Source: a virus. Taken from it: a DNA stretch of 64,000 bases. The stretch lies in the IMG/VR virus record IMGVR_UViG_3300050821_004803, positions 1 through 64,000 of that record; one strand, written 5' to 3'. The position numbers and the translations under genes are program-made. Below, piece after piece: positions 2,496 through 25,368 of this stretch. Every line of letters starts with the position of its first letter. Position 1 is the first letter of the stretch. The notes beneath the pieces were generated by a model that saw nothing but the letters and a program-made list of their open reading frames with translations, was not told where the DNA came from and ran no database searches.

Positions 2496-3023
2496 ATGCT
2501 TCTTACATCCGAACAACGTAAACAAATGCTTGATGAGGTTCTTAAGGAACATCCCAGATTTCCGGGATTTGACCTGCGTTGGGGTTATGTTAACGCAATC
2601 TCTACCGAAAACGGTGGGTATTTTGTGCCTATAGAGGATATAGAAGAATGTCTTAATAAGTCCCGGTATGGTACAAAGGAGCACCCTCTTTTGCCGATGT
2701 ACCCAGAATTTAGATTAGATTTTGGATGTTCTTTTGTCAGAAAAACACCCACATGTTGCGGAATTATTGATGTTGGAAACTGGGGAACCCATAACGTTAC
2801 TCCTTCTCAAGAACGCAACTTCAAGCTTTTCATTGATTTTTTACACCGACAAAAACAGGGACAGGGGCTGGGTTTAAGAGCGGGAGTTGTTCTGGCTCAC
2901 ACCAATGATAACTATGTTGGGGTTAACAAGCTTCTTCGAGAATGCGGTTTCAAAGAACTTAATTTCTTCAACGCCAATTCGGATCACATGATGTCAATGT
3001 GGACGCTTGTTTTACATCCATAA
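2496..3023 (+). CDS. GNAT-acetyltransferase-like protein
   Basis: A 175-residue protein preceded by AAGGAG. The C-terminal third (AHTNDNYVGVNKLLRECGFKEL) matches the GNAT pattern where an Asn is followed by a helix and a (K/E)CGF turn. The acetyl-CoA P-loop is not clear, so activity is uncertain. It pairs with a shorter relative at 3036. GNAT proteins are known partners of amidoligases in phage peptide-modification clusters, which matches the gene at 4080. The family assignment is an inference. Confidence 0.6.
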   Translation: MLLTSEQRKQMLDEVLKEHPRFPGFDLRWGYVNAISTENGGYFVPIEDIEECLNKSRYGTKEHPLLPMYPEFRLDFGCSFVRKTPTCCGIIDVGNWGTHNVTPSQERNFKLFIDFLHRQKQGQGLGLRAGVVLAHTNDNYVGVNKLLRECGFKELNFFNANSDHMMSMWTLVLHP

Positions 3024-3035
3024 GGAGGAAACTAA

Positions 3036-3413
3036 TTGTTGGACCCAGAGAAAGTAAAGAGAGCGCGAGCTTACACAGGGCGTGTTGATGATCGTTATTG
3101 TATACAGCTGATTCAATTTCCTGCTTGTTGTGGTGCGGGCATCGCCTATAATTTTGATATATTCACCCCAGAGGCTACCCAAGCGCAATTTATCATGGAT
3201 CTGGCTAGTTGTGGGTGGGGTGTGGTATGTGCCACCACTACAGCTAGTCAGAGAACGGGCAATAAAATTCTGAAATATGTGGGATTTCGTCCAGTATCTG
3301 TTACCAAAAACCCCAACTCCGGTAACAACGTGACATTTTGGGTTCTTGATCTCAAAGAATCCAAGAAGAAGGTGCCTGATGGTACAAATGCTTCGAACTC
3401 GTCTAGGCTATGA
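3036..3413 (+). CDS. Second GNAT-like protein
   Basis: A 125-residue protein with a TTG start placed by AAGGAGGAA ending 5 bases upstream. The segment RTGNKILKYVGFRPV corresponds to the NKLLRECGF region of the preceding protein, and both share a CCG(A/I)I-type core strand, so they look like diverged tandem duplicates. Catalytic competence cannot be judged. It overlaps the next gene start. Confidence 0.6.
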   Translation: MLDPEKVKRARAYTGRVDDRYCIQLIQFPACCGAGIAYNFDIFTPEATQAQFIMDLASCGWGVVCATTTASQRTGNKILKYVGFRPVSVTKNPNSGNNVTFWVLDLKESKKKVPDGTNASNSSRL

Positions 3414-4079: not shown

Positions 4080-5417
4080 ATGAAGCTAATGGGATTTGAC
4101 GAAATCGTTAACCGATATGTGACGTTGGACATGGAGCATTTGGTCAAACAAAAGTGGATACAGGATTGGCGTGACCAGAACTGGGGACTAAGAAATTCGG
4201 CAGATTTAACAAAACTGCTTCCAATGAAACATCCTCACGTCTACGTTCAACCAAACAATATAAAAGGTTGGATGATGATGAGTTTTGTTGCTGCTATTAA
4301 TGACAATTCCCAAATCCGTCAAATCGTTTGTAAGATACCCGCCGGAACTATGGTTAAGGGGACGTATTTCAAAGTTACACCCGATATCGCCTTTCGGGAC
4401 GTAATGACAGGAATTGGATACAGCGGGTGGGACCCGGAGATTTTTGTTGAAGATGGTGCCAACAATCTGTTACCCGCTTTCACCTTTCTTCCACCAAAAG
4501 ACAAGGGTATCCTACACGGCGCTGGACGGGTTTATTATGATGGTTTCCAGGCCGAATTTACCACAAATCCAATCGGTTGTCATGGACACGGATTTGATTA
4601 TCTTCGACTCGGATTAAAGGGAGTTTTGACTGCGGCACGTAAAAAAGCACTCAAGGCAATTCTTTCAGTAAAGAGCGTTTATCGCATTCCAGATAGCCTT
4701 ATGATATCGGCATCCGACGATCAGGTTGCCCTTGGTTGTAAGCCATCTCAAAATGTTTACGGAACCCTCCCTTATCACAACGAGGCTTCGCGAACACTTC
4801 CTTATCGTGTGTCAGGCGGACACATTCATTTTAGTATAGGTAATGCGCCGCTCGAAGAATCTCAAATCATCAATCGAATAAAGGGAATGGATTTATTTCT
4901 TGCCCTCCCCTCTGTTGGGATTTTTGCGGATGTTGATGATCCATTGCGTCGCGAGTTCTACGGGCGTGCTGGAGAATATCGCACCCCAAAATATGGTTTG
5001 GAATACCGAACGCTGTCTAGCGCGTGGCTTTGCAGCCCAAAACTGGGACACGGGATTATGGATGTGGCTCGTCGCGCTTGCGGAGCCGGATCAAAAGGGG
5101 ATGTTTACGAGCTTACAGGAATCAAATCAGAAGCTGTGGTTGAAGCCATCAACTATTGCGACGTTAAAAGCGCTCGAAAGCTTACCGAAAAACTCTGGCC
5201 ATCTTTCATGAGAGTCATGGAAGCACCGTGGTATAAAGAACCTCGTTTTGAACGCGCCTACAAACAACTTGTTCACGAGGGGGTTGCCGCCGGATTCCCC
5301 AACTACGACAAAATCGAAACCAATTGGAAACTTGATGGTGTGTGGGTCCCCCACAGCGATGACTCCCGTGCAACTTTTAATGCTCACTGCACTCAATCCC
5401 AATACCGAAATGCGTGA
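4080..5417 (+). CDS. COOH-NH2 amidoligase, phage type 2 (copy A)
   Basis: A 445-residue protein of the glutamine-synthetase-fold COOH-NH2 ligase family described from phages of the phiEco32 type. Seen in order: WDPEIF at 117-122 (the DPE metal-ligand strand), GGHIHFS at 246-252 and LEYRTLSSAW at 307-316. The same three landmarks occur in the proteins at 8284 and 13035. The family is predicted to join a carboxylate to an amine using ATP; the substrate here is unknown. About 110 extra N-terminal residues precede the core, which the third copy lacks. Its stop overlaps the next start. Confidence 0.85.
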   Translation: MKLMGFDEIVNRYVTLDMEHLVKQKWIQDWRDQNWGLRNSADLTKLLPMKHPHVYVQPNNIKGWMMMSFVAAINDNSQIRQIVCKIPAGTMVKGTYFKVTPDIAFRDVMTGIGYSGWDPEIFVEDGANNLLPAFTFLPPKDKGILHGAGRVYYDGFQAEFTTNPIGCHGHGFDYLRLGLKGVLTAARKKALKAILSVKSVYRIPDSLMISASDDQVALGCKPSQNVYGTLPYHNEASRTLPYRVSGGHIHFSIGNAPLEESQIINRIKGMDLFLALPSVGIFADVDDPLRREFYGRAGEYRTPKYGLEYRTLSSAWLCSPKLGHGIMDVARRACGAGSKGDVYELTGIKSEAVVEAINYCDVKSARKLTEKLWPSFMRVMEAPWYKEPRFERAYKQLVHEGVAAGFPNYDKIETNWKLDGVWVPHSDDSRATFNAHCTQSQYRNA

Positions 5418-5763
5418 AATAGTCCCCTGTCCGATGTGTGTAGATGGTCGAGAGTTGGATTTAAACTCCGGTCAAATGCATCCGTGTCCCACTTGTGGAG
5501 GTCGTGGCGCTCTGCCGCCAAACGATATCTGCAACTGCGGTCGTCCATGCTTCGTTGAACACAACAACATTCTTTATTGTGGAAATAAGGACTGTCTAAC
5601 CGAAATCGAACGCGAAATTCGAGTTCAAGGGCAGTTTTGGGGTTTTTACGCTACGGAGGATGATGATGCCGATTTTAACCCAAACACCTGGGCTATTCAT
5701 CCTCACCGTATCGGGGCCTCTCGCATGGGTGGGGCGCGTCAAGACCCGCGAAATTGGAATTAA
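5410..5763 (+). CDS. Multi-zinc-ribbon protein
   Basis: A 117-residue protein. The ATG at 5410 overlaps the amidoligase stop. It has four Cys pairs: CPMC, CPTCGGRG (DnaJ-type CxxCxGxG), CNCGRPC and CGNKDC. The C-terminal third is acidic then basic. DnaJ-like ribbons bind unfolded peptides, so a role presenting a peptide substrate to the ligase is a reasonable but untested idea. Confidence 0.7.
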   Translation: MREIVPCPMCVDGRELDLNSGQMHPCPTCGGRGALPPNDICNCGRPCFVEHNNILYCGNKDCLTEIEREIRVQGQFWGFYATEDDDADFNPNTWAIHPHRIGASRMGGARQDPRNWN

Positions 5764-6127
5764 ATTTTGGGAGAATATCCCCTAACAAAGTCAGAGGAAG
5801 GAGAGCATGGAAATGCCACGCTTGAAGGGCGATGTTGAATACGGTCTCGTTGTGGGGACAAACCTCCGTCAATCCACCGATTGAGGGTTTCAATATCCGT
5901 TCTAGTTGTATGAAAGACTTATCTGATGAGTAACACCTCTAGTGGCGAATAGCTTACGCTGTAAAAACGGATCATTTGGCCTACTTGTTTCGACAAGCAT
6001 CCCAATTCCAGGTGCCTATTCCCTAATCAAACTATGTGGCTACGGCTTTTAGGAAATTCATATGGTTAGACTTTCAGAGGACACATTCTCCCGATACTCT
6101 CCTTCTTTGACACTCTTTTGAGGTTAT
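5764..6127 (+). other. Structured leader region upstream of the GGCT gene
   Basis: 364 bases without a long gene. It contains GGGA-GAATA-TCCC (about 5769-5782), a small ORF (5807-5884), a hairpin of AAACCTC with GAGGGTTT enclosing CAATC-cacc-GATTG (about 5866-5890), and a 7-bp pair ATCCGTT/AACGGAT about 70 bases apart. The arrangement suggests a regulated mRNA leader. Confidence 0.5.
5807..5884 (+). CDS. Leader peptide (25 aa, possible)
   Basis: ATG preceded by AGGAAGGAGAGC, one of the strongest ribosome sites in the region. The ORF ends inside the hairpin at 5866-5890, so a translating ribosome would disrupt that structure. This is the geometry of an attenuator leader peptide. The residues themselves show no obvious regulatory amino-acid run. 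Confidence 0.4.
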   Translation: MEMPRLKGDVEYGLVVGTNLRQSTD

Positions 6128-6466
6128 ATGCCGCTGTTCTTCACATATGGAAGCTTACGAAAAGGACAGTTTAACCACAGCTTCCTCCTTGCGTTAAAAC
6201 CCGTCTTCAAGAGAACCGCGCAAATTAAAGCAGATATGGTGGATTTAAGATTACCCTTTCCAGCAATAAAAGAGGGGTTTGGCCTGGTGGAAGGTGAAAT
6301 TTATGAGGTAGACAAACATGGATTTGCCGAACTGGATCTCCTCGAAGGACATCCTCACTTTTACGAGCGACGCACAGTTACAACCACCGACGGAGATGCT
6401 GTTGAAGTCTACTTTGGAACAGGGGTCCTTTATCTCCAGGCCAAACCCCTCTCAACTGAGGGTTGA
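6128..6466 (+). CDS. Gamma-glutamylcyclotransferase-like (AIG2/GGCT) protein
   Basis: A 112-residue protein with the GGCT landmarks: FTYGSLRKG at 5-13 (substrate loop) and ELDLLEGHPHFYERR around 65-80. GGCT enzymes remove gamma-glutamyl groups by cyclising them to oxoproline. GGCT-like proteins recur beside COOH-NH2 ligases and ATP-grasp enzymes, where they are thought to edit or release the conjugate. It is interrupted in frame by one dispersed repeat (6271) and ends in another (6436), an unusual load for so short a gene. Confidence 0.85.
   Translation: MPLFFTYGSLRKGQFNHSFLLALKPVFKRTAQIKADMVDLRLPFPAIKEGFGLVEGEIYEVDKHGFAELDLLEGHPHFYERRTVTTTDGDAVEVYFGTGVLYLQAKPLSTEG
6271..6287 (+). repeat. 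Dispersed repeat copy 4
   Basis: AGAGGGGTTTGGCCTGG, forward, canonical. It is read in frame inside the GGCT gene. Confidence 0.95.
6436..6452 (-). repeat. Dispersed repeat copy 5
   Basis: CCAGGCCAAACCCCTCT, reverse, canonical, at the 3' end of the GGCT gene. It is inverted relative to copy 4, 165 bases away, so the two could pair in mRNA. Confidence 0.95.
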
Positions 6467-6518
6467 TGATGATTCAATGTCAGTCCTGATGGCGGAAGGT
6501 TATTAAAGGAGATTTTTT

Positions 6519-6899
6519 ATGTTTGATTGGTTGTTTGGAAAGAAGAAAACAATGGAACCGTCGTCGGCTCCGATTTTGCCTCATCACATTCCAACTCATG
6601 TTGCGATGCCTCCGAGCGTGCATCCTCCCTTTCACAGTCGTCATGAGCAACCAACTCCAATTCGATTGGTCCACGGGCAGGCTCCTCGACCCGTGGAGGA
6701 AGACAATCCTCTGCCATCTTTTATTGCTGGAGCTGCTTTGGGCGCAATGTTGAGTTCGAATGACGACTCTTCATCAAGTTCTTTCTCCGATTCAACACCG
6801 TCTTTTTCTGATTCGTCCTCATCTGATTCGGGTTTTAGTTCGGATGGCGGGTTTGGTGGGGGCGACTCCGGCGGTGCTGGTGCAAGTGGAGATTATTAA
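6519..6899 (+). CDS. Ser/Gly-rich low-complexity protein
   Basis: A 126-residue protein with ribosome site AAAGGAG. It has a short amphipathic N-terminus (FDWLFGKKK), a Pro/His-rich middle, a small hydrophobic stretch (FIAGAALGAMLSS, about 69-81), then Ser-Asp runs and a Gly-rich end finishing in GASGDY. The tail resembles the disordered Gly/Ser ends of TPM/YgcG-type membrane proteins. Its position inside the amidoligase cluster makes it a candidate target for C-terminal modification; that is speculation. Confidence 0.65.
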   Translation: MFDWLFGKKKTMEPSSAPILPHHIPTHVAMPPSVHPPFHSRHEQPTPIRLVHGQAPRPVEEDNPLPSFIAGAALGAMLSSNDDSSSSSFSDSTPSFSDSSSSDSGFSSDGGFGGGDSGGAGASGDY

Positions 6900-7226
6900 G
6901 TTCCCTTCGGGGAAAGTCGTAACGCCCGGATGCTGCCATGTTGTGGGTCCGACAAAAGCGTTGCGCATTAGATTGAGAACGTGAGCCTGGCTCCATGTTA
7001 GAGTATTTTTTCAGTGAGTTGGAGCTACCAGCCTTCTCGAAGAAATATCTCTAGGCGTTTTCTTTCTAGGGTGCATGGAGAAAGCGCACTTTCGGGTGCC
7101 CAACTCTCTAGGGGCGGATACTAGGCCCGATCAGCCTAGCCTGACAAAGAAAGTTCGTACCTGGCCAACGGAGGTTCTTGCAAAGGGCTTGAATGTCTCC
7201 GTTGGTTACCAATTTTAGGAGCAAAG
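6900..7226 (+). other. Structured intergenic leader
   Basis: About 327 bases rich in hairpins: TTCCC-ttcg-GGGAA at 6902-6915, CTAGGC-ccgatca-GCCTAG near 7120-7140, and CCAACGGAG/CTCCGTTGG near 7164-7205, a perfect 9-bp stem just before the ribosome site of the gene at 7227. A 47-codon ORF (7075-7218) crosses it. Confidence 0.5.
7075..7218 (+). CDS. Possible 47-aa leader ORF
   Basis: Open from ATG 7075 to TAG 7216-7218, ending 8 bases before the next ATG. It is basic, with a weak upstream CTAGGGTGC. It spans two strong hairpins, so it may be either a small gene or a chance ORF over a structured RNA; the structures argue for the latter. Confidence 0.3.
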   Translation: MEKAHFRVPNSLGADTRPDQPSLTKKVRTWPTEVLAKGLNVSVGYQF

Positions 7227-7742
7227 ATGACACTCAAAGTACCTAATTCGATGATTCGTCATGTGTGTTATCAAACAAACTACAGGCTGCCACAGTTGGA
7301 AAGGTTAGCTGTTGAGCGAGCACCGAAGAAGGTTATTCCGATAACGAACATCCGGGGATACACCCCATCTCGGATAACTCTTCGGGAGGGTAAACTAAAG
7401 GGAAACCTTCCTCGGGATGATTACCGCTTTTTTCTGGGAACGTATGGCGGCGACAATGAGATTGGTGTTTGTCGGTGGTGTGGTATAGTAACACACAGTT
7501 CTAAAGAACGTCGTGAGCATGGAAAAAGTACGTGTAAATGTTCTTTGGTTGAGCTGTATGGGATTTTGTTGATCGGTAAAAAATGCGCTATTTGCAACGC
7601 CTTTACAGGAGAAAAATGTTGGGGACTTCCTCTTTGTAAAGACGGATGTCAGAATGAGTGGATGGTTCATGCTTCACCGACATTTAAAATGGCGGCAGAT
7701 AGGTTGCGTATTTCAAAAAAGGAGCCAATCTCTACCAAATGA
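7227..7742 (+). CDS. Zinc-finger protein, unknown
   Basis: A 171-residue basic protein with ribosome site TAGGAG. CRWCG (about 82-86), CKC, CAIC and later Cys residues form at least two zinc ribbons. The N-terminal 60 residues are basic and without motif. Its stop overlaps the next start (ATGA). The context inside the amidoligase operon suggests a partner or substrate-binding role, but it could equally bind nucleic acid. Confidence 0.65.
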   Translation: MTLKVPNSMIRHVCYQTNYRLPQLERLAVERAPKKVIPITNIRGYTPSRITLREGKLKGNLPRDDYRFFLGTYGGDNEIGVCRWCGIVTHSSKERREHGKSTCKCSLVELYGILLIGKKCAICNAFTGEKCWGLPLCKDGCQNEWMVHASPTFKMAADRLRISKKEPISTK

Positions 7743-8281
7743 GAACTTATGATAATCGTTGGTTGGTAAGAGCTTCTACAGCAGCTCAGGGGAATAGGCG
7801 GATTCCTTATGCCGCTTTTTCGGGGAAGTATCCCATTCGAATTTATATTCGACTAATGTTTTATGCGTCAAAACAAGGTCGCTGGATAACCCGATTTAGC
7901 TATAACGGACGATATTCGTTGTCGGCGATTCGGCAGGGTTTTCGCGAAAGAAATCGGCTTGTAGTGGAGGTGGGTTTAGAGGGTGTTTCTCTCCGTGTCA
8001 TAGAGTATCATCGTAATGGGGTTATTTATGAAGGAGATGGAACGAGCGGTCTTTCTTTTTATGGACATAATCACGTTCATTTTCAGTCTGGAAATATCCC
8101 TACTCGCAATAGCACTGCTGTCGTATGGTCGGGTTTGAAGGACCCAGAAATTCCTATTCGTTGCGATTCTTTTGTTATGTTGGTTCCAAAAAGTCAAATT
8201 CCAAAAAAGGATGATGTGAATGGCTGGCGCATATTGTATAAACAAATGCGTGCTCGTCGATATCGCAATATGGTGAATTAA
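7739..8281 (+). CDS. Unknown basic protein
   Basis: A 180-residue protein coupled to the previous gene by ATGA and followed 2 bases later by the second amidoligase. It is rich in Arg and Tyr with a predicted beta pattern (RIYIRLMFYASKQGRWITRFSYNGRY). GLSFYGHNHVHFQSGN resembles the His-rich GGHVHF strand of the ligases only superficially. No family is recognised. Confidence 0.6.
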   Translation: MRTYDNRWLVRASTAAQGNRRIPYAAFSGKYPIRIYIRLMFYASKQGRWITRFSYNGRYSLSAIRQGFRERNRLVVEVGLEGVSLRVIEYHRNGVIYEGDGTSGLSFYGHNHVHFQSGNIPTRNSTAVVWSGLKDPEIPIRCDSFVMLVPKSQIPKKDDVNGWRILYKQMRARRYRNMVN

Positions 8282-8283
8282 TC

Positions 8284-9783
8284 ATGTTACTAGGAACTCA
8301 AGTTCGCCGGGAATTTGACAGAGCCTTGATACGGGGAGAGAATGTAATGAATCTTCCTTTGGACTGCACCGAGTCTACTAAACTAAAGTGGTTGGAACGT
8401 GCCGATAAGGACATAGAAACAGTTAAATGTCCGATTTTGTCGCAAGGCCGCAGGATAAATAATTTTTGTCTAGGTTCAGATCCGGAATTTGTTTTTGCCC
8501 GTGAAGGTGGAAATCGGATTGATGCGGCAACGTTGGGATTGAAACCTGGTTTGGCGGCGGGGTGCGATCAAAACCAACGTCTCGCTGAGCTTAGAGGTTG
8601 GCCTTCTTCTTCCGTACTTGAACATGTGGCCGGTATCCTGGCATCGTTGCGCTGGATGTATAGGGTATATCCGGATACTAGAGAATATGCTTGGCGAGCA
8701 GGTGGGTGGTATTTAACAGATGGTATTGGTGGACACGTACACTTTGGGCGTAAACGACCGACTCGTGATCCAGAAGTAAGGGGTTTGGATGGGCTAGCCT
8801 TTGCCTTTCGGGCAATGGGATTTTTTAACAATGCCGAATGGGACCGACGAAATCGAGGTGACGAACACCGACAGGTGTACGGTTTGTATGGGGATATTCG
8901 TCCTCAACTACATGGATACGAATATAGAACACTTCCTTCCTGGCTTGATACACCTGCTAAAGCATTTATAGTATTAACAGCTTCTAAGTTGGCGATTCTT
9001 GACCCAGAGCTTCTAAGTTCTTGGCCAACTTCTGTTGTTCTGGCGCCTCAAAAGGGCCAGCAGTTGTTGCGGTATTTGGCACGATATTACGCGGGGCGAG
9101 ACGACGATGCTTGGATTTTAAAATACATGTTGCAATCACGCTCCACAACTCTTGAAGCTGCTTTTGATGGGATGAGGTTCAACACTAATTTCAAACCATA
9201 TTGGGGATTTAGCCCCCGCAATGACACTATCTCCAAACTCCCTTCCAAAATTTTACCTGCGTGTATCGAACCTTGCGCAAGCGAAATAAAGGAGATAGAA
9301 AAAAATCTTTTGGAGTTCAAACCGCTAACTTTTGTTGAAAATGCCCCAACATTCAAAAACGAAATTCCTAAAAATTATTACTGGCTATACGGGGACGGAA
9401 TACGGGGTCAAGGACGAGCAGGAGTGGGTGACTTGTTGCATAACATGGTCGGTCACTCATCTTATACCATAGGTTTTGTCTTTGATGAACGGTTTTCGAT
9501 AAGTCACGATCTTTATTCCGAGTGGACTCCGGAAGAGCAAAAAATTGTTATAAAAATGTTTGGAAAGTTCTCAATAAATCGAGGACATTCGAGAGTGATT
9601 GTACTACCAAGAAATTTGACGATTGTTCCTGAAATAGCAAAAACCAGAATTTTCTTTTTAAAGATGGGCCTGTTTCCACTATGGACAGTTGAGACAGTAG
9701 AAGAGAAGTCATTCCAATCGTGGTTGGCTTCTCGGAAAAAACTTACAAAAACTAAACCTCTTGCAGAGGAAAGGACGCTTTAA
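8284..9783 (+). CDS. COOH-NH2 amidoligase, phage type 2 (copy B)
   Basis: A 499-residue protein, the clearest family member here: GSDPEF at 64-69, GGHVHFG at 149-155 and GYEYRTLPSWL at 211-221. These supply the acidic metal ligands, the His strand and the Arg of the glutamine-synthetase-like active site. The last ~130 residues are an extra domain absent from the other two copies, ending basic. The TAA is immediately followed by the ATG of the glutamine amidotransferase, so ligase and amidotransferase should be made together. Confidence 0.88.
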   Translation: MLLGTQVRREFDRALIRGENVMNLPLDCTESTKLKWLERADKDIETVKCPILSQGRRINNFCLGSDPEFVFAREGGNRIDAATLGLKPGLAAGCDQNQRLAELRGWPSSSVLEHVAGILASLRWMYRVYPDTREYAWRAGGWYLTDGIGGHVHFGRKRPTRDPEVRGLDGLAFAFRAMGFFNNAEWDRRNRGDEHRQVYGLYGDIRPQLHGYEYRTLPSWLDTPAKAFIVLTASKLAILDPELLSSWPTSVVLAPQKGQQLLRYLARYYAGRDDDAWILKYMLQSRSTTLEAAFDGMRFNTNFKPYWGFSPRNDTISKLPSKILPACIEPCASEIKEIEKNLLEFKPLTFVENAPTFKNEIPKNYYWLYGDGIRGQGRAGVGDLLHNMVGHSSYTIGFVFDERFSISHDLYSEWTPEEQKIVIKMFGKFSINRGHSRVIVLPRNLTIVPEIAKTRIFFLKMGLFPLWTVETVEEKSFQSWLASRKKLTKTKPLAEERTL

Positions 9784-10836
9784 ATGTGTGGAATTGCTGG
9801 AGTTAGAACATATGGCAAAGAACCCATAACCGCGGTTGAGTTGAAAATTTTGCTCAACAAACTGGAAAGACGGGGAACCCACGCCACCGGAATTGCGTTG
9901 CTGACAGCGGGGCGTATCCATATTTTGAAAGATGCGGTTCCTGCGTGGTCTTTTACGGCGGCTAAAACCACCGATGCTTTTTTGGATGAGTTTCTTACTC
10001 CTGAAACCACAATGGCGCTTCTTCATACAAGATTTGCCACAGTTGGACCGCCCCAAAACAACGACAACAACCATCCAATGTTTCGCGGACATTCAGCGGT
10101 GGTTCACAACGGACATATCAATAACCACACACAGTTGTTTTCCAGTGAGAAAGTAGAGCGTTCCTGCGAAACCGATTCCGATATTATTCGGGGCCTGATA
10201 GACAAATACGGAATGACGGATAAAGGTTTAGAAAGTCTTCCTAAGCTTTCCGGATCAGCGGCTATTGCAGCTTTCTCGGAGGACGATCCCGAAACATTAT
10301 TGCTGGCCCGGAGTGGCTCGCCTTTAACTTATGGGGTGAGCACGGTTACTTACAAGTTATGGTGGGCTTCCGAACTCCCGGCAATTCAAGCAGCAGTAAA
10401 ACCTTTTGTAAATGTTCATGGTTTGTGGGCGCGTGGACCAAGACCGGACGTGGCGTACTTCACTATGCCCGATAACACTGCCTATTTGTTGGGACCAAAG
10501 GATCATCTTACCCGTCGTCCATTTAACAGCTGCACGCACTATCAACAACCCGACTATTCCCGCGTATACGGTGAAACTTACGGCAACCGTATGAGAAGCT
10601 TTAGTCGCGAACATCAAAGCACTATTCGAAGGGTGCTTCCTGCGTCGTCTAGTGTTGCAACGGTGGACGGCTTCGGTTTCACCCATAAAATTGCTCCCTG
10701 TAACCACTGCCATACAGCAAACAAAATTTTAAAAGATGAAAAATTTGCTGATTGGCTCTGCACCAACACCGCATGTCGCAAGCCCCTTGACGAACTGGAC
10801 AAGATTCCAGTCGATGAATTAAGATGGAGGAACTAG
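9784..10836 (+). CDS. Class II glutamine amidotransferase with zinc ribbon
   Basis: A 350-residue protein that begins MCGIAGV, exposing the catalytic Cys2 after Met removal. RRGTHATGIALL (29-40), LLHTRFATVG (79-88) and VVHNGHINN (106-114) are the glutamine-binding loops of Ntn-type GATase II. The C-terminus has CNHC and CTNTAC, a zinc ribbon not found in the usual enzymes. No asparagine synthase or PRPP domain follows, so it may supply ammonia or amide to the neighbouring ligases, or use glutamine as an acyl donor. Confidence 0.9.
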   Translation: MCGIAGVRTYGKEPITAVELKILLNKLERRGTHATGIALLTAGRIHILKDAVPAWSFTAAKTTDAFLDEFLTPETTMALLHTRFATVGPPQNNDNNHPMFRGHSAVVHNGHINNHTQLFSSEKVERSCETDSDIIRGLIDKYGMTDKGLESLPKLSGSAAIAAFSEDDPETLLLARSGSPLTYGVSTVTYKLWWASELPAIQAAVKPFVNVHGLWARGPRPDVAYFTMPDNTAYLLGPKDHLTRRPFNSCTHYQQPDYSRVYGETYGNRMRSFSREHQSTIRRVLPASSSVATVDGFGFTHKIAPCNHCHTANKILKDEKFADWLCTNTACRKPLDELDKIPVDELRWRN

Positions 10837-10837
10837 G

Positions 10838-11590
10838 TTGAATTTTCACATTGCCCGCACAGCCTCTACCACAGGTAATCTTCTTCAAACATTAGTCAAT
10901 CAACAACTGACCGGCAACACTGATACTGCACATGTTTGTTATGGGGTGGGTAGACCGGACAATGCGAGAACGTTAAATGCGAATTGTTCAAGATATAGCA
11001 AGTTAGAACAAGCCCGACTTCTTTCAGAGGGGTTAGGGCCTGGGGCCTTGCGTGTATTTGACACCATAGAAGGAGCTGAAAATGCAATTCGAGTCGGTGG
11101 TAGTCCCCTGTTTGCTCGGACTTTTGTGCATTCTAGGGGTCGTGATATCCGTCCAGTTTTGGATGCTTGGCAGTGCCGTCCACTCTTTGAACGAGGGAAT
11201 GTCTTTTTTACGGGTTTTGTGCCGTCGAATCGTGAGTTCCGGGTATGGATCTACCGACAGCGACATCTTGGCAGTTATGAAAAGATACTTCGTCGCCCGA
11301 ACGACTGTCAACGTCTCGGAAGAAACCACGATAACGGTTTCGACTTCTCAGGGATCGAGGGTGATGACGTTCCCGAAGGGCTCAAAAATATCTCCAGACA
11401 AGCTATTAGAACCCTTGGTCTCGACTTCGGGGCCGTTGATGTCCTGCAAGGACTAGATGGGGGCTATGTGGTGCTAGAGGTTAACTCAGCTCCAGGGGTC
11501 AGCAACGAGCGTCGTCGTGTCATCCAAGCTCTTGCACATCGAATTACTCGTTGGGCGGCGAATGGTTGTCCAAATAGAAGGGATGAATAA
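10838..11590 (+). CDS. ATP-grasp ligase
   Basis: A 250-residue protein with a TTG start after ATGGAGGAAC. The C-terminal half carries ATP-grasp landmarks: NREFRVWIY (131-139), GLDFGAVDVL (194-203) and LEVNSAPG (213-220), the last giving the Mg2+-binding Glu and Asn. The N-terminal part is short and lacks a clear pre-ATP-grasp fold. ATP-grasp enzymes make acyl-phosphates and join them to amines, so it would add a residue to a peptide or protein. A dispersed repeat lies within the N-terminal third. Confidence 0.85.
   Translation: MNFHIARTASTTGNLLQTLVNQQLTGNTDTAHVCYGVGRPDNARTLNANCSRYSKLEQARLLSEGLGPGALRVFDTIEGAENAIRVGGSPLFARTFVHSRGRDIRPVLDAWQCRPLFERGNVFFTGFVPSNREFRVWIYRQRHLGSYEKILRRPNDCQRLGRNHDNGFDFSGIEGDDVPEGLKNISRQAIRTLGLDFGAVDVLQGLDGGYVVLEVNSAPGVSNERRRVIQALAHRITRWAANGCPNRRDE
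11026..11043 (+). repeat. Dispersed repeat copy 6
   Basis: AGAGGGGTTAGGGCCTGG, forward, spacer AGGG. In frame in the ATP-grasp gene, encoding EGLGPG. Confidence 0.9.
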
Positions 11591-12142
11591 ATGGCTGGAG
11601 TAACCAAACATTATGTTTTGTTTTCCGCTGACGGGACTTTTTTGGACGTAAAAGCGCTTCCTCCGTTACAACACCTGATCGAGCGCCTCGCGGGGTTGTC
11701 TTTGGTTCGACAAGAATTTCCAGGTATTGTCCGAGAGGTACGAGCTTTATCGACTTCCCGCTCTTGGAGAAAGCGGCTTATCAAAACTTATGAAGTTTAT
11801 AAGGTGCTTTGTACTGCGACAAAAACCAAAGGCTGGAGACTGGCAGAGTACCGTGTTCGCAAGGGACGAGGACTGGGCAGCCACAGTGCCTTCAAGGCGA
11901 TAGCCTCCAACTATCGGGCTTTTTCCGTGCCAAAGAAAGCGGTAAGGGTTACGTTTGCTGATAACCCAAGAGCCAACCGTTGGACCCTTGACAACCCTTT
12001 TAACCCTGAAGAAGGGGTTCCAGAAGGAAATACCGGAACAGCGCAAACAATAACACCGCTGCCACGACATCTAGAGCCACAATTTAATATACAACGGTAT
12101 ATGTCGAATGTCCCCAGAACCGGAACAGGTCGCACTCCATGA
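11591..12142 (+). CDS. Unknown basic protein of the amidoligase operon
   Basis: A 183-residue protein starting directly after the ATP-grasp stop. Residues 50-115 are highly basic (RSWRKRLIKTYEVYK, RVRKGRGLGSHSAFK). The last 60 residues are disordered and Thr/Pro/Gly-rich, ending RTGTGRTP. A flexible tail next to ligase genes makes it a candidate acceptor protein; nothing in the sequence proves it. The stop overlaps the next start. Confidence 0.6.
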   Translation: MAGVTKHYVLFSADGTFLDVKALPPLQHLIERLAGLSLVRQEFPGIVREVRALSTSRSWRKRLIKTYEVYKVLCTATKTKGWRLAEYRVRKGRGLGSHSAFKAIASNYRAFSVPKKAVRVTFADNPRANRWTLDNPFNPEEGVPEGNTGTAQTITPLPRHLEPQFNIQRYMSNVPRTGTGRTP

Positions 12143-12495
12143 CAGATCGTTGGGATAGAAGAGTGGATTTCGCTTGCAGCAACGTTCTCAGTTACATCGA
12201 ATCACGCAAAATTGTATGCTGCAAAATACACGGAGCTAACCAACCCTTTTCTCTGGTGCAGGATTCAAGTGGATGGAGAAAAGTCTGCAATCAATGCGTT
12301 GAAAATTTCTTCAAAGAGATTGGGGTGCCGGTAAAACCAGAAGTTGTTGATGTGTGTTTTGAGGATGGCTGCACCAACGATGCTAACCCCGCCGCCCGAT
12401 GTCTTCTATGCCAAGAGTTGTTTTGCAATATCCATATGACAGATGATTTTGTTTGTCAATCGTGTACAGAAAAGACCGACAATGGACTTACATGA
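12139..12495 (+). CDS. B-box/HIT-like zinc protein
   Basis: A 118-residue protein. It has CFEDGC, CLLCQELFCNIHM and CQSC in the last 45 residues, a cross-brace order of Cys and His similar to B-box or HIT-type fingers. An upstream CC and CNQC may make a second site. Such modules mediate protein contacts. Coupled by ATGA to the gene before; its last 14 bases overlap the sigma-factor start. Confidence 0.65.
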   Translation: MTDRWDRRVDFACSNVLSYIESRKIVCCKIHGANQPFSLVQDSSGWRKVCNQCVENFFKEIGVPVKPEVVDVCFEDGCTNDANPAARCLLCQELFCNIHMTDDFVCQSCTEKTDNGLT

Positions 12496-13054
12496 GGCCC
12501 CAGGCCAAACCCCTCTTATAGGAGAGAATCCGGAAAATGCCCTCTACGAAACGTGGAAAAAAGCTTCTGAAGCTGCGCGTCCACCGATTGAGCAAGCGTT
12601 GGTTCCACTTCTATATCGTCACGCATCCAAGGTTTGTTGGATGGTTCTTCATTCTAATCAGCCTGATTTAATTGGAACGATTATTAATGATGTGTTTCTT
12701 GGAATGAGAAAATTTAAGGGGGACAGTCTTTTTTCTACTTGGGTTCACGCTCTTGCACTGTATCGGTGTAGAGCGGAACTTCGAAACATTCGACGCAGGA
12801 AAGAGGTAAACGGGATTGTTGATGGGGGTGTTTCGTATAGTGTGAGGGGTTGTCAAGAAACTTCTAGCGTGGTCCAAAATTTGGTGTCCAAGTTGGGTAA
12901 ACGAGAACAGGAATTGGTTCGATTAAAGATTGATGAAGGTTTATCTGACAAAGAAATAGCGGAAGTTCTTGAGCTTCATCCCGTTTATATTCAAAGACTT
13001 TGGAAGGCATTACGAAAGCGATTGAGGTCGATGTATGGAAGGAAAGCTTCTTAA
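12482..13054 (+). CDS. ECF-like RNA polymerase sigma factor
   Basis: A 190-residue protein. Residues 43-105 match sigma region 2, including a DLIGTIINDVFLGMRKF helix and STWVHALALYRCRAELRNIRRR for -10 recognition. Residues 136-184 are region 4 with a helix-turn-helix (LSDKEIAEVLELHPVYIQRLWKALRKRL). Regions 1.1 and 3 are missing, as in ECF factors. The start at 12482 is chosen for length; a dispersed repeat sits in codons 7-12. The likely role is to turn host RNA polymerase to phage promoters, perhaps the GTTGTA-GGATACTAATA motif. phiEco32 is known to encode such a factor. Confidence 0.85.
   Translation: MDLHEAPGQTPLIGENPENALYETWKKASEAARPPIEQALVPLLYRHASKVCWMVLHSNQPDLIGTIINDVFLGMRKFKGDSLFSTWVHALALYRCRAELRNIRRRKEVNGIVDGGVSYSVRGCQETSSVVQNLVSKLGKREQELVRLKIDEGLSDKEIAEVLELHPVYIQRLWKALRKRLRSMYGRKAS
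12500..12516 (-). repeat. Dispersed repeat copy 7
   Basis: CCAGGCCAAACCCCTCT, reverse, canonical. It lies 5 bases after the zinc-protein stop and within the N-terminal codons of the sigma factor (encoding PGQTPL). Confidence 0.95.
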
Positions 13055-14087
13055 TTCGTTTCTGTTGGGTGCAGACCCAGAATTGATTCTTCTTGATCCG
13101 CCAGCGTTGATTAATGGCAGTCGAGAACACAAAGCTGGATATCATTATGGGTACGATCATGGTGGCTATGTAATTGAACCACACCCAAGTCCGAGTTTAT
13201 CGGCGCGAACCGTGTGTGCGAATATCAAGAAGTCGTTGGATGTGATTTCCAATCGTTTTCCCTCTTATAGACTTAGAGCAGGAGCTTATTACCGCGACCC
13301 GGATCGTAGAGATGTCACTCTTGGTGGTCATGTGCATCTTGATCTTCAACATCTTTCTGCCGCCCAGTTGAAAGCAATGGACATTTTTGCAACCTCACTT
13401 GAAGCCCTTGAGATTCTTCCAAGCAAAGAAAACAAGTTGCGTTGTGGGAGCGGTCATGGATATGGAAAATTGGGGGATATCCGTGCTGAACACGGGCATG
13501 TAGAGTACCGATCGCTTTGTTCATGGTTGTTTAGTCGAAAAACATCCATGCTCTGTATAACTGGTATTAAGCTGGCTGCGGTGGCTCCGGATACCGTCAA
13601 ATCTGCGGATTCTTATACCAAACTTTTGCGCTGGTTCGAAGAATTTAAAGGAAAGGATGATGATGTTGATTGGATTCTGGATCGAGAGTATTTCGCGTCA
13701 TCTTTGGAAGCCAAGCCAGACGCTAATGTAAAAGCGGTTTGGAAAGTAGACCCCGATAAAGCAAAGGAGTGGGAACAAGAGGTTGCGACAATGGTTCCAA
13801 CCAATATAGTTAACATGGCCGATCTTGAACGGCGGATGCTAACAGAGGATTATTTCCCTAGTGGAGTGGAGTATGAAGAAATTCGTCGTCGTTCTCGGGA
13901 GGGTAGTGAACGAGCAGCTACTCTATGGAGGTTAATTCATCGTACGGAGATTTTAAGGGCCGCCCGATACGCACAACAACCACTTGCGGCCACAAATAAC
14001 AATAACATGACCACAAATAACAATAACTTTGAAAATTTATTGGGCGGGATTCTACAAAACCCGGATCTATATACCGGTCGTCGTTAA
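13035..14087 (+). CDS. COOH-NH2 amidoligase, phage type 2 (copy C)
   Basis: A 350-residue protein, the most compact of the three ligases. GADPEL at 12-17 lies near the N-terminus, GGHVHLD at 97-103 and HVEYRSLCSWL at 155-165. It overlaps the sigma-factor gene by 20 bases. The last 25 residues are Asn-rich (NNNNMTTNNNNFENLL), from an AACAAT-type repeat, and are probably disordered. Three diverged copies in one operon suggest successive ligations or different substrates. Confidence 0.85.
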   Translation: MEGKLLNSFLLGADPELILLDPPALINGSREHKAGYHYGYDHGGYVIEPHPSPSLSARTVCANIKKSLDVISNRFPSYRLRAGAYYRDPDRRDVTLGGHVHLDLQHLSAAQLKAMDIFATSLEALEILPSKENKLRCGSGHGYGKLGDIRAEHGHVEYRSLCSWLFSRKTSMLCITGIKLAAVAPDTVKSADSYTKLLRWFEEFKGKDDDVDWILDREYFASSLEAKPDANVKAVWKVDPDKAKEWEQEVATMVPTNIVNMADLERRMLTEDYFPSGVEYEEIRRRSREGSERAATLWRLIHRTEILRAARYAQQPLAATNNNNMTTNNNNFENLLGGILQNPDLYTGRR

Positions 14088-14103
14088 AAATTTTTCCGCA
14101 TTT

Positions 14104-14140
14104 TTTGTGTGGAATTTGTATCATTTGTAACACTAATAGG
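14104..14140 (+). promoter_or_regulatory. Possible promoter after the amidoligase operon
   Basis: An AT-rich gap holds TTGTGT and, about 20 bases on, TAACACTAATA, which shares ACTAATA with the phage promoter motif but not its spacing. It would serve the replication module starting at 14149. Confidence 0.3.
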
Positions 14141-14148
14141 CAGACTTG

Positions 14149-14427
14149 ATGAAACCACGAGCTTTCTCTAGGGGTACGGCTCTTAGAGTATTTTGGGTGG
14201 ATTCTTCTCAAACAGCGGGATGGAAATACGATGAAAACATTCCAGTTATGGTTGAGAAGATAGCCACCCTTGGTTGGGTTACGGATACGTCTTCTGATGG
14301 AATTAATATGACTTCAACTCTTTCAAAACATGGAGGAGTTTTGTCATATATTTCAATTCCCTGGAAGGCCATAGTCCACATTCAAGAATTAAACGAATGG
14401 GATCGAGATGCGAATTTACCGCTCTAA
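14149..14427 (+). CDS. Unknown small protein
   Basis: A 92-residue protein; the TTG at 14146 is an alternative start. The sequence suggests a small beta barrel (LRVFWVDSS, GWVTDTSSDGINMTST, LSYISIPWKAIVHIQEL), reminiscent of SH3-like domains. No conserved catalytic residues are visible. It precedes the nuclease. Confidence 0.6.
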   Translation: MKPRAFSRGTALRVFWVDSSQTAGWKYDENIPVMVEKIATLGWVTDTSSDGINMTSTLSKHGGVLSYISIPWKAIVHIQELNEWDRDANLPL

Positions 14428-17937: not shown

Positions 17938-18581
17938 AAGTAGTTTGCATATCCGATACTCATGACGTTCACTATCCAGAACTTCCGGAAGGGGATATGC
18001 TGATTCACGCTGGGGACGTTTCTTTAAACGGAAGTCCCCAAGAAATTACGAGATTTTTAGATTGGTTTGAAAAACAACCTCATCGACATAAAATTTTTGT
18101 AGGTGGTAATCACGACCGTTCGTTGGAGCAATACGGATGGGGATTTTTCGAGCGAAAAGGCATTACGTACCTCGAAAACTCCTCCACAAAAATTGAAGGT
18201 TTTAAAATATTTGGTTCTCCTGCCTCTCGTACCTTTGGTCACATCTGCGCTTTTATGCGAGAGGAAGAAGCCCTACGAAGACTTTGGCTGGGTCTTGATG
18301 GCACTCACGATATAGTTATCACCCACAGTCCGGCCAAGTGGTTTAGAGATTCTGAAGCCGATGGTGTGCCTCTGGGCAGTGAATCGCTAGCAGAATTTCT
18401 TCGATACGCCAATCCCTTACTCCACGTATGCGGACACATACACGGCGGATACGGACAAACGGAGCACAAAGGAACTCAGTACGTAAACGCATCGCACCTG
18501 GATGTTACGTACCGAAAGTTCAATGCTCCTATTGTAGTAGACCTAGAAGATATAAAGAAAAAAATAAACTCCAGGCCCTAA
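17934..18581 (+). CDS. Calcineurin-like metallophosphoesterase 1
   Basis: A 215-residue protein with a GTG start. Motifs in order: SDTHDVH (7-13), HAGDVS, GGNHDR (about 58-63), THSPAK and CGHIHGGYG, together supplying the two-metal site. The size is typical of small phage phosphatases acting on nucleotides or nucleic-acid ends. The C-terminus runs into a dispersed repeat that contains the stop codon. Confidence 0.85.
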
Positions 18582-18588
18582 CCCCTCT
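18571..18588 (-). repeat. Dispersed repeat copy 10
   Basis: CCAGGCCCTAACCCCTCT, reverse. It spans the phosphoesterase stop and lies just upstream of the polymerase ribosome site. Confidence 0.9.
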
Positions 18589-18598
18589 GGGAGCCAAC

Positions 18599-20995
18599 CT
18601 GAAAGTTTGTGAAATAGCGGCTTGTGCTGGGTGTCCGCTAAGAAAGAAAAATCCAGATGCTATATTTGTTCCTCCTCGTGTTGGCAGTAATCTTCGTTTG
18701 GAGATTGGTGACTACCCAGGACGTGTCGCTGCAGAGCTTGGACATCCCCTTGGTGGTGGCTCCGGTGGCTGGCTCACGTCGATGTATTCTAAAGCCGGTC
18801 TTGAAGAAAAAGAAAACTCTGTCCTAAACGTAATTCAATGTAAACAACCCGAAGAGGAGTTTCCGAAAAATGAGCATGAGGCCATCGAGCACTGCCGAAA
18901 AGCCCACGTGGAACCCTTCCTTGCATCCAAACCTTGGACTCGTGTTGATGTGTTTGGAGAATATCCGCTCAAATATATTCTCCAAAAGAATCTTGAAATC
19001 TCTAGATGGCGTGGAACTATTTTATCCGTACCAGCTCTCGACAATTCAAAGATTGCTATTCCTACCTTCCATCCTAGATATATCGCCAAAGATCAAGCCA
19101 TGTTCCCGGTGGCGATTAATGATCTACGGAAAACGCTCACCGTTGAACCAGAATATTATAACATTTATCCCTCCCTCAACGATGTCAGACAATTTCGATC
19201 AACCCGCTTTGCTTTTGACATTGAAACAAATGGATGGACAAAAGAGATCAACATTGTTGGACTTTGTTCAGAAGATTATAGGGTAATAGTTGTACCATTT
19301 ATCGGAGAGTATGTTGACGAGTTACGACGCATATTTGCAAACGCCACAGAAGTCATTGGTCAGAATCTGGTTCAGTTTGACTTACCTGTGTTGGCTCACA
19401 ATGGCATTTATATTCGTGGCCCTGAAGAGTGTGTGGTATGGGATACGATGCTTATGCATCATCTACGCTTCCCAGTATTCCCCCACGATCTTGAGTTCAT
19501 TGGCAAACAATTTACGAACAAAGGCGCATGGAAAGCCGATAAAGTTTCTTTCGAAACATATTGCGCGAGAGACGTTGATGTCACCTGGCGATCCTTTCAT
19601 CCGCTTAAAGAACTTTTGGTTCAAGCCGGTCTCTTAGATAACTATAAATATATCAGTTGGCCGCTGGCTAAAATTTGCAAATTGATGACCGATATAGGTT
19701 TATCCCGATCATTCAATCGAATTGCTAAACTTCGGGATGAGCTACACGAAATTATCAAAGTACAAGAGGGGTTATTGCCTGGGCATCTTAGAACTTTTAC
19801 TAAGTATGTAAACAAGCGAAAACCGGCTCCCGAAGGTACAGTCAACGAAAAAGGCAGACTAGTTAAGTATATTTATGAGCCGGTAGCGGAGGTTGAGGTT
19901 CCTTGGCGGTCGTCGGCTGTCAAAATGAAATTCCTCTATGAGGAGCTTCGGGACGCTAAGGGTAAAAAGCTTGAAGTGGTTAAACACATCAAGACGAAAC
20001 AACCCACAACCGACAAAAATGCCCTTGACAAGTTGTATGTTCGTCATAAACTACCGGAACTTCGGGCACTTAAAGAGCTTCAACGCTGTGCCACACTGTT
20101 GCAGGGTTTTGCTAAAGAGGACTTAAAAGTAAACGATGTCTTACACCCATCTTTCAACCCCCACGGAACAGAAACAGGACGTCTTAGTTCGAGTGGTCCT
20201 AACATTCAGAACCAGCCAAGCGCTGTGCGATATTCTTACGTCCCAAGAAATGCCGGAGGAAAGATTGTCTCGGTTGATTACTCGGGCATTGAAAACCGAC
20301 TCGTTGCGGATTTTGCGAGAGATCGAAAACGTAGAGAGTGGTTCAAAGACATCAATTTCTCTGAACATAAATACCTAGCGGCTCTTATTGAAGGAATTGC
20401 TTATGAAGAAGTCGTCAAATCCAAGGACAAAGATTCTCCTTATGCAATGGCGAAAGTCATTGTCCACGGGTCTGACCGTCTCATGGGTGCTAAGAAAATT
20501 GCCGCCCAATATGACCTTGACATTGATCGAGTAAAAGATTTTCAAGCAATTTGGAAGAGAGAAATCTCGGATACTATTGCTTGGCAATCCCGAGTAGGAG
20601 CAGAGGCTGCTAGGATCGGCTGGCTCTCTAACCCCTTCGGGCGTAAGTTGTGGTTGTGGGAAAGCAATTCAATAACTAAGGCGGTGTCGTTTATGCCTCA
20701 GTCCACAGCTGCTGATGTTATCTTTCGGGCTATGATTGCGCTTATGTATGAGCGCATTGGATGGCCAAAAGAGTGGGCATTAAAGATTGCACCGTACGTG
20801 GAATCGTTGCCTGAAGGGGTCCTACTGCTGGCCCAGGTACACGACGAATTGTTGTGTGAAACCGAAAATGCAGATCAAGTAAATCCTACACTAGAGGTTC
20901 TGGAACGGGTGATGACGCAACCCTGGCCAGAGTTAAACGGGTTGTCCCTTCCTATAGGGAAGGCGTCAGGTGATTCTTGGGGAGATTGTGAATGA
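18599..20995 (+). CDS. DNA polymerase I with N-terminal UDG-like domain
   Basis: About 798 residues. The N-terminal ~190 residues resemble family-4 uracil-DNA glycosylases (CAGCPLRKK Cys ligands, IPTFHPRYI His motif), as in the SPO1 polymerase. The 3'-5' exonuclease follows: FDIET (about 207), QNLVQFD and YCARDVD. The polymerase has TGRLSSSGPN (about 526), VDYSGIENR motif A (about 559) and QVHDELL motif C (about 748). Motif B is diverged (AKVIVHGSDRLMGA). No ATG, GTG or TTG fits; CTG at 18599 has GGGAG 5 bases upstream. The ATG at 18428 would overlap the previous gene by 154 bases. Confidence 0.85.
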   Translation: MKVCEIAACAGCPLRKKNPDAIFVPPRVGSNLRLEIGDYPGRVAAELGHPLGGGSGGWLTSMYSKAGLEEKENSVLNVIQCKQPEEEFPKNEHEAIEHCRKAHVEPFLASKPWTRVDVFGEYPLKYILQKNLEISRWRGTILSVPALDNSKIAIPTFHPRYIAKDQAMFPVAINDLRKTLTVEPEYYNIYPSLNDVRQFRSTRFAFDIETNGWTKEINIVGLCSEDYRVIVVPFIGEYVDELRRIFANATEVIGQNLVQFDLPVLAHNGIYIRGPEECVVWDTMLMHHLRFPVFPHDLEFIGKQFTNKGAWKADKVSFETYCARDVDVTWRSFHPLKELLVQAGLLDNYKYISWPLAKICKLMTDIGLSRSFNRIAKLRDELHEIIKVQEGLLPGHLRTFTKYVNKRKPAPEGTVNEKGRLVKYIYEPVAEVEVPWRSSAVKMKFLYEELRDAKGKKLEVVKHIKTKQPTTDKNALDKLYVRHKLPELRALKELQRCATLLQGFAKEDLKVNDVLHPSFNPHGTETGRLSSSGPNIQNQPSAVRYSYVPRNAGGKIVSVDYSGIENRLVADFARDRKRREWFKDINFSEHKYLAALIEGIAYEEVVKSKDKDSPYAMAKVIVHGSDRLMGAKKIAAQYDLDIDRVKDFQAIWKREISDTIAWQSRVGAEAARIGWLSNPFGRKLWLWESNSITKAVSFMPQSTAADVIFRAMIALMYERIGWPKEWALKIAPYVESLPEGVLLLAQVHDELLCETENADQVNPTLEVLERVMTQPWPELNGLSLPIGKASGDSWGDCE
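19765..19783 (+). repeat. Dispersed repeat copy 11
   Basis: AGAGGGGTTATTGCCTGGG, forward, spacer ATTG, in frame within the polymerase between the exonuclease and polymerase domains. Confidence 0.8.
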
Positions 20996-24417: not shown

Positions 24418-24433
24418 GAGGGGTTTGGCCTGG
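24417..24433 (+). repeat. Dispersed repeat copy 14
   Basis: AGAGGGGTTTGGCCTGG, forward, canonical. It fills the whole gap between the exported protein and the recombinase and contributes the first base of the GTG start. Confidence 0.95.
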
Positions 24434-25368
24434 TGCGTGGAACTATACACAATCTTCAGGCTCGGTTTGAGAATTACGTTGCACTAACGGCTTCTCAACC
24501 TACCAGTGTTCGATATTCAAAGGCTTTAAATAACTTCTTTGACCATTTCACGGACAAGTTTGATCCGGAGGATTTCTCAAGGAAAGATATTGAAGATTAT
24601 AAGATATATCGACTTCGCGAGAAAGTCTCTTCCAAAACGGTCAACTACGAAGTTCAAGTAGTGAAGTCGTTCTGGAATTGGCTTGTGCGAATGGAGGCGA
24701 GTCCTTACAATCCTTGTACCACCACTAAGCGGCTGAAGGAAGTTGAGCCAGCAAAAAGATCGTTGAGCCTTGAGGATCAAGAGAAAGTGTATGAAGCAGT
24801 ATCTACTTTTGGCTCTCCTTTGGATAATCTACTTGTTGGTCTTGCCCTTTCTACTGGTTTGCGGGCAGAAACTCTTATACGGCTCGAAACCGCGGATGTT
24901 GACTTTGAAACAGCTACTCTCCGAATTCCTGCCGCAAAAATGAAAGCCGGACGGAACCACGAGGTTCCAATCCGGCAGGATGTAATGGAGCTGATTAAAG
25001 AATTACCCGAAGGAAGATTCTTCAATGGTTACTCACGTACTGCACGTAGTTTATCTGACCGCTTTAGTCGTATCCTCCGTCGTAGCGGTATTTTGGGTCA
25101 TCGCGGATTACGCACCGCCAGGAGATCATTTGCTACAACACTTCTTCGAACGGGTACGGACATCGGTCTGGTACAAACGCTCATGGGGCACCGATCCGTT
25201 CTAACGACTTCACGATACTTAACTGTGGCTGATTCTGCTACGACCAAAGCTGCGATTGACCGTTTACCGAAGGGAGCTTCAAATGATTCACATGCTTCTA
25301 ACCCTAACACTGTTGATGGTACCAACACCGAAACCACCGGAACCAACACAGATTCCACTATCAATTAA
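24433..25368 (+). CDS. Tyrosine recombinase (integrase/XerC-like)
   Basis: A 311-residue protein with a GTG start. Residues 5-95 are a SAM-like DNA-binding domain. The catalytic set is complete: R144 (STGLRAET), K171, H223 and R227 (GHRGLR), H253 (MGHRSVLTTSRYL) and Tyr262. The last 30 residues are Thr/Asn-rich and disordered. It suggests a temperate phase or multimer resolution. No att core or excisionase is recognisable in the window. Confidence 0.88.
   Translation: MRGTIHNLQARFENYVALTASQPTSVRYSKALNNFFDHFTDKFDPEDFSRKDIEDYKIYRLREKVSSKTVNYEVQVVKSFWNWLVRMEASPYNPCTTTKRLKEVEPAKRSLSLEDQEKVYEAVSTFGSPLDNLLVGLALSTGLRAETLIRLETADVDFETATLRIPAAKMKAGRNHEVPIRQDVMELIKELPEGRFFNGYSRTARSLSDRFSRILRRSGILGHRGLRTARRSFATTLLRTGTDIGLVQTLMGHRSVLTTSRYLTVADSATTKAAIDRLPKGASNDSHASNPNTVDGTNTETTGTNTDSTIN

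Follow-up and report, generated by a model that had tools for sequence, protein, structure and literature searches.

A clade-wide three-ligase variant of the phage amidoligase module, predicted to form successive amide bonds

The virus record IMGVR_UViG_3300050821_004803 belongs to a tailed phage, recognized from its open reading frames (ORFs) and domain matches for terminase, portal-type and DNA polymerase A genes. The stretch analyzed here, called the window, covers 64,000 of the 65,112 bases of the record and carries on its + strand (4080-14427) a block of genes for amide-bond chemistry that includes three ligases of the PF14395 family, named A, B and C. Blocks of this type were known before; what is new is a clade-wide variant with three ligases. 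We hold with moderate confidence that the block encodes one pathway, expressed with the early or middle genes, which uses ATP to form at least two amide bonds on a peptide or protein, the bonds being most likely of the gamma-glutamyl or isopeptide kind. The computed basis of this reading comprises the protein families, their intact motifs, the fixed gene order, the separate lineages of A, B and C and a link to ATP-grasp ligases.

Ligases A (4080..5417), B (8284..9783) and C (13035..14087) had been called diverged COOH-NH2 ligases in a preliminary description of this DNA, and profile comparison bears this out. All three match PF14395 (3e-13, 6.8e-21 and 3e-13), with bit scores of 50.1, 75.1 and 50 against a curated cutoff of 25 (Pfam). 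Ligase A additionally matches phrog_3815 (4.5e-33) and is of the type shared with phi32_86 of phiEco32 and gp16 of LUZ24. The D-P-E, GGH-x-H and E-Y-R motifs are intact in A, B and C and are kept in nearly all relatives of each. A structure model was made for ligase C (pLDDT 82), and it shows the glutamine synthetase (GS) fold that had been anticipated: the 50 Foldseek matches listed are all structures of the GS/GCS superfamily, with YbdK as the best match (1.6e-7) and GmaS among the matches listed. The matches have low global TM-scores (about 0.38), so the assignment of this fold to C rests on their E-values and uniformity. All three ligases are predicted to be ATP-dependent amide ligases.

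The three genes do not look like recent copies. In the ligase tree, A forms one group (100/99), B another of 19 sequences (100/100), and 13 C sequences stand together (97/92), with the long-branch sequence L064_C unplaced; in a second tree with further sequences all C-type ligases, L064_C included, group at 98/91. By these trees the three ligases form separate lineages of old origin, which gives substance to the earlier suggestion that the tripling of the ligase is meaningful. Most differences between ligase C and its nearest relative are synonymous, and the synonymous sites are saturated. A recent duplication or a decaying copy was considered for C and is ruled out by the tree, the kept motifs and the strong synonymous excess. 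By tblastn, ligase A occurs in 304 of 50,697 phage records; in the cultured-phage collection, no significant match is obtained for ligases of the B and C types.

Relatives of the phage were first found with a TerL query, and an alignment of B-type ligases led to 23 viral loci; scans with single-protein patterns of B, the glutamine amidotransferase (GATase) and C gave few or no relatives. According to profile annotation, the gene order in the clade is ligase A, a zinc protein, an optional gamma-glutamyl cyclotransferase (GGCT), the zinc protein W72, protein Y, ligase B, GATase, ATP-grasp ligase, ligase C and a small protein, w14146. Three PF14395 genes, as in the window, are present in 12 of 17 related records and two in the other 5; chance is excluded, because those 12 records have the same three ligase genes in the same order. 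The records without C, one of which (L069) stops at a contig edge, form a single B subclade (100/97), so that one loss of C would be the simplest history. Spacing within the window agrees with the operon-like block of the preliminary description: the nine genes at 7227-14087 overlap or lie 0 to 2 bp apart and can therefore be read as one unit.

Ligase B directly precedes the GATase gene, the slot that PF12224 (Amidoligase_2) occupies in LUZ24 and phiEco32. PF12224 is found in none of the 18 clade records and was detected in all three positive controls. A 97-kb virus (IMGVR_UViG_3300037313_000454, locus L174) has both a C-type ligase and PF12224 in the stretch examined, as would be expected if B and PF12224 were alternatives.

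Catalytic motifs are intact in every enzyme of the block, and the other enzymes named earlier, a class II GATase with a zinc ribbon, an ATP-grasp ligase and a GGCT-like protein, are corroborated by family matches. The GATase (9784..10836) is of the N-terminal nucleophile (Ntn) type and matches PF13522 (1.2e-15) and, by profile, the GlmS glutaminase domain (3e-26). Its nucleophile Cys2, HTR and HNG motifs, Arg, Asn, Gly and Asp motif residues and the C-terminal Cys cluster that forms the zinc ribbon are all present, and C2, HTR, HNG and the Cys cluster are conserved. The ATP-grasp ligase (10838..11590) has a weak Pfam match and is RimK-like by PHROG (phrog_2599, 1.7e-18) and structure profiles (RimK structures, 1.2e-11); it keeps the metal-site D, E and N residues, with the motifs DFGAVD and LEVNSAP. 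The third enzyme (6128..6466) is a GGACT/AIG2-type gamma-glutamyl(amine) cyclotransferase (PF06094, 4.8e-20), with the YGSL motif and the catalytic Glu aligned with those of the PDB structures of YtfP and AIG2-like domain protein 1. It is optional in the clade and present in 8 of 17 relatives.

Existing annotations already show the core of the block (PF14395 ligase, GATase II, ATP-grasp and usually GGCT) in LUZ24, phiEco32, tf, UFV-P2 and Zobellviridae. The genes of LUZ24 and UFV-P2 run from the PF14395 ligase through a protein X of about 190 amino acids (aa), PF12224, GATase II, ATP-grasp and GGCT to the primase-helicase; phiEco32, pSal-SNUABM-01, Slicky01, Zobellviridae, a Manatee Spring phage and phiM6-type phages have the same genes, partly reordered. 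The presence of this core in many unrelated phages counts in favor of one pathway. Some of these phages also encode a class I, PuuD-like Peptidase_C26 protein. A rule by which every module has either GGCT or C26 was considered and rejected: it holds for most canonical modules whose full stretch was read and fails in the window's clade. Protein X (LUZ24 gp17, phi32_85, CVT22 gp57) lies upstream of PF12224, usually directly, in 15 phages (e.g., loci L046, L040 and L044), and its CVT22 member has no Pfam match. Its profile has no match in the clade loci.

What is already known of the function of the module comes from a few phages. The gene module was first noticed in 2009, and PMC10580990, citing Iyer et al. 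(2009), relates a proposal that the phiEco32 module alters the cell wall to prevent superinfection. The module-bearing segment of PaP3 (ORF32-48) is middle-expressed (PMC4707531); for SU10, a phiEco32-like phage, mass spectrometry detected the ATP-grasp, GATase and GGCT proteins, which are listed as early products (PMC4281155). The literature searched holds no experimental account of the module's product. Modification of the host wall or envelope to block superinfection would agree with the published proposal and with the middle-gene timing in PaP3, and amide-ligase chemistry suits peptidoglycan stem peptides. However, neither a signal peptide nor a transporter nor a wall-binding domain turned up in the conserved members, and we regard this explanation as distinctly unlikely.

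A scan of bacterial and archaeal genomes gave 303 relatives, of which 80 were kept, mostly from spore-forming Bacillota. In the Bacillota protein PF14395 makes up the C-terminal part, preceded by an N-terminal part similar to the final portion of the phage ATP-grasp ligase (profile-profile probability 96.9%). This fusion is an argument for joint action of GS-type and ATP-grasp domains. In 66 of the 80 cellular loci (L081-L160; e.g., L085:8745-10786), the gene immediately upstream, in the same orientation, is cotE. Outside the spore-formers, some Ignavibacteria metagenome-assembled genomes (L082:9998-12243, L103:8238-10550) have a PF14395 ligase, a 202-aa double-zinc protein and a GATase II in a mobile-element-like setting, close to Gam-like and DUF932-like genes; this may be a prophage or plasmid.

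How might these enzymes work together? In the proposed pathway, the GATase II would free ammonia or glutamate from glutamine, and the ATP-grasp and GS-type ligases would attach amino-acid or amine units one after another, with a separate acceptor for each ligase. Ligase B may perform the job that PF12224 performs elsewhere, and C with Y may add an optional further step. Where it is present, the GGACT-type cyclotransferase would trim gamma-glutamyl-amine linkages, while the zinc proteins (5410, 7227 and the GATase ribbon) could hold the substrate or the enzymes together. The kinship with RimK and the linkage to cotE favor a protein or peptide acceptor over a free metabolite, only moderately. 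Given the phiEco32 proposal and the cotE linkage of the bacterial relatives, our guess is that the end target may be an envelope, surface or coat protein. A more explicit version, which we consider unlikely, is a three-step pathway in which A starts, B replaces Amidoligase_2 and C with Y adds a unit, giving a phage or host protein a covalent attachment of an undescribed kind, with related chemistry at the CotE coat layer of spore-formers. The preliminary description had likewise suggested a multi-step conjugation pathway; the intact families, the GS fold and the conserved clade order sustain it, and for the core it restates an existing prediction. A peptide tag, of the sort that it mentioned from the amidoligase literature, would be one possible product.

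Several points weigh against a single pathway acting on a protein or peptide. The GGACT gene is missing in 9 of 17 relatives and a C26 hydrolase is found in none of the 18 clade records, so gamma-glutamyl cleavage is not essential in the clade. The ATP-grasp half of the cotE-linked protein has lost the metal-site residues found in phages and need not perform the same chemistry. The low TM-scores of ligase C mean that its structure matches identify a superfamily, not a substrate. These enzymes could equally be used to produce a free small molecule. Such a molecule might be a gamma-glutamyl amide, a glutathione-like or polyamine conjugate or a metabolite for nitrogen or glutamine handling, with no protein modified. 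Ligases of GS/GCS type with GmaS/YbdK-like folds act on small amines, the GGACT and PuuD-like C26 enzymes of the sister modules act on small gamma-glutamyl compounds, and the GATase II would feed ammonia. On the other hand, the enzyme nearest to the RimK-type ATP-grasp lengthens a protein at its C-terminus, the nearest cellular relatives adjoin a spore-coat protein gene, and several zinc or adaptor proteins are conserved alongside the enzymes. A free product is possible but doubtful.

Two further explanations are still less probable. Amino-acid-modified thymines exist in other phages and the module adjoins replication genes in many phages, as might be expected if it hypermodified phage DNA with amino-acid groups. 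However, a thymidylate-synthase-type enzyme (PF00303) is found in none of the 18 clade records and no other base-modification gene occurs among the conserved families, which makes this very improbable. PafA and Dop, the enzymes of pupylation, are members of the GS/GCS superfamily, and a small phage protein could by analogy be attached to targets through its C-terminus. Neither PafA nor Dop is among the matches listed for the ligase C model, though, and none of the ORFs below 200 aa in the first 24 kb of the window ends in GGE or GGQ, while 12 relatives have single, non-recurrent cases only. Attachment of this kind seems scarcely credible.

Several zinc proteins had been reported in the block, and they are confirmed. 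The first (5410..5763) has two CxxCxG-like knuckles, and in 18 of 20 clade loci a homologue directly follows A. It had been described as a DnaJ-type zinc protein starting at 5248: the zinc protein stands, but Pfam shows no DnaJ domain in it and the start codon is probably at 5410. W72 (7227..7742) and Y (7739..8281), neither of which had been singled out before, are conserved and belong to the set. W72, a core member of the clade with two Cys/His sites, has homologues upstream of B in 19 clade loci, across which eight Cys, His and Arg positions are invariant, including C82, C85, H98, C120, C123, C137 and C141. Its model (pLDDT 81) has weak matches to zinc-finger structures, and the structure search with it gave no significant match. 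Identity of W72 with protein X was considered and ruled out, as hidden Markov model and hhalign comparisons show no similarity; Y is likewise unrelated to X.

Protein Y carries the motifs PFPGxYPTR, YxGKP and EFDR. Its family is found in 13 loci plus the window, where the sequence is divergent relative to the rest (profile E-value 3e-5). In the clade, Y accompanies C in every case, and the C-less records lack it; L174 has C, with no Y detected. As this shared pattern probably goes back to one evolutionary event, it suggests, and does not prove, that the two are coupled.

The remaining genes of the block are less uniform. A sigma-70 region 4-like protein (12443..13054) overlaps ligase C and is kept in 16 of 20 loci; its Sigma70_r4_2 match (3.5e-4) is below the cutoff and it also matches phrog_1740 (5.6e-7). 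A scan of sigma-70 promoters gave 28 sites against 24 expected, which is chance level. The conserved set ends with the small protein w14146 (14146..14427), of W-x-D-S...GW pattern, with homologues in 16 of 20 loci. An uncharacterized operon protein (11591..12142) and a Cys-rich, probably zinc-binding protein (12139..12495; Cys pattern in the sequence) have homologues in the nearest relative, L079, only. The first of these and the product of 6519 had been put forward as pathway proteins with flexible tails. Both are real ORFs; a pathway role finds no backing, as neither is conserved in the clade except in L079.

Elsewhere in the window, the genes at 2496-3023 and 3036-3413 had been called GNAT-like, a description that fails for want of any GNAT match in Pfam or PHROGs, and nothing supports them as parts of the pathway. 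They look like a distantly related pair, with a conserved Cys-Cys and a GF...W-L end, and have relatives in four clade loci. The DNA polymerase A (18428-20995; PF00476, 3e-34) has an N-terminal uracil-DNA-glycosylase domain (PF03167, 3e-8). A tyrosine integrase gene (24433-25368; PF00589, 5e-23) suggests that the phage may be temperate.

A separate observation concerns Zobellviridae with the canonical module, in which 8 to 19 small proteins per genome share the end tail LENE, LEND, LENK, MENE or LEEN-x. The tail was seen in CVT22 (L053), Pecta (L055), KpnP_VR7901 (L056), T2S1 (L057) and CW02 (L042/L054). It overlaps the Shine-Dalgarno site of the next gene, and its Asn and Asp codons vary only synonymously. 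It also persists where, judged from the codons (TTA GAA AAT AAA, CTC GAA AAC GAT), that site is lost. The synonymous-only variation and the retention of the tail without the site point to selection on the peptide. No LENE-type tail is found in the window's clade.

The phage amidoligase module is widespread, and the comparison within this clade separates fixed parts from parts that are swapped (PF12224 for B) and parts that come and go together (C and Y), yielding concrete gene sets for study. The cotE-linked fusions suggest that this chemistry extends beyond phages, and it could be sought in culturable bacteria that carry them.

Compared with known systems, the window's clade shares with the phiEco32/LUZ24 module ligase A, GATase II, the RimK-like ATP-grasp, GGCT and the position upstream of replication genes. 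It differs in having B in the slot of PF12224, in lacking PF12224 and X, and in adding C, Y, its own zinc proteins and the sigma-like gene. A 170-kb virus (IMGVR_UViG_3300028827_000129, loci L005/L078) likewise has A, a B/C-like PF14395 ligase, GATase II, ATP-grasp and GGCT; unlike the clade, it carries two GATase II and two Peptidase_C26 genes, together with its two PF14395 ligases within one region, and is without W72 and Y. The 97-kb virus of L174 shares the C-type ligase, GATase, ATP-grasp and GGCT, whereas PF12224 takes the slot of B and no A was detected in the stretch examined. Among cellular systems, the cotE-adjacent protein of Paenibacillaceae, Heliobacteriaceae and other spore-formers resembles the module in its PF14395 ligase with a fused ATP-grasp-like half. 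It differs as a single chromosomal protein encoded beside cotE-mutS-mutL, with no metal-site residues in its ATP-grasp half and no adjoining GATase II.

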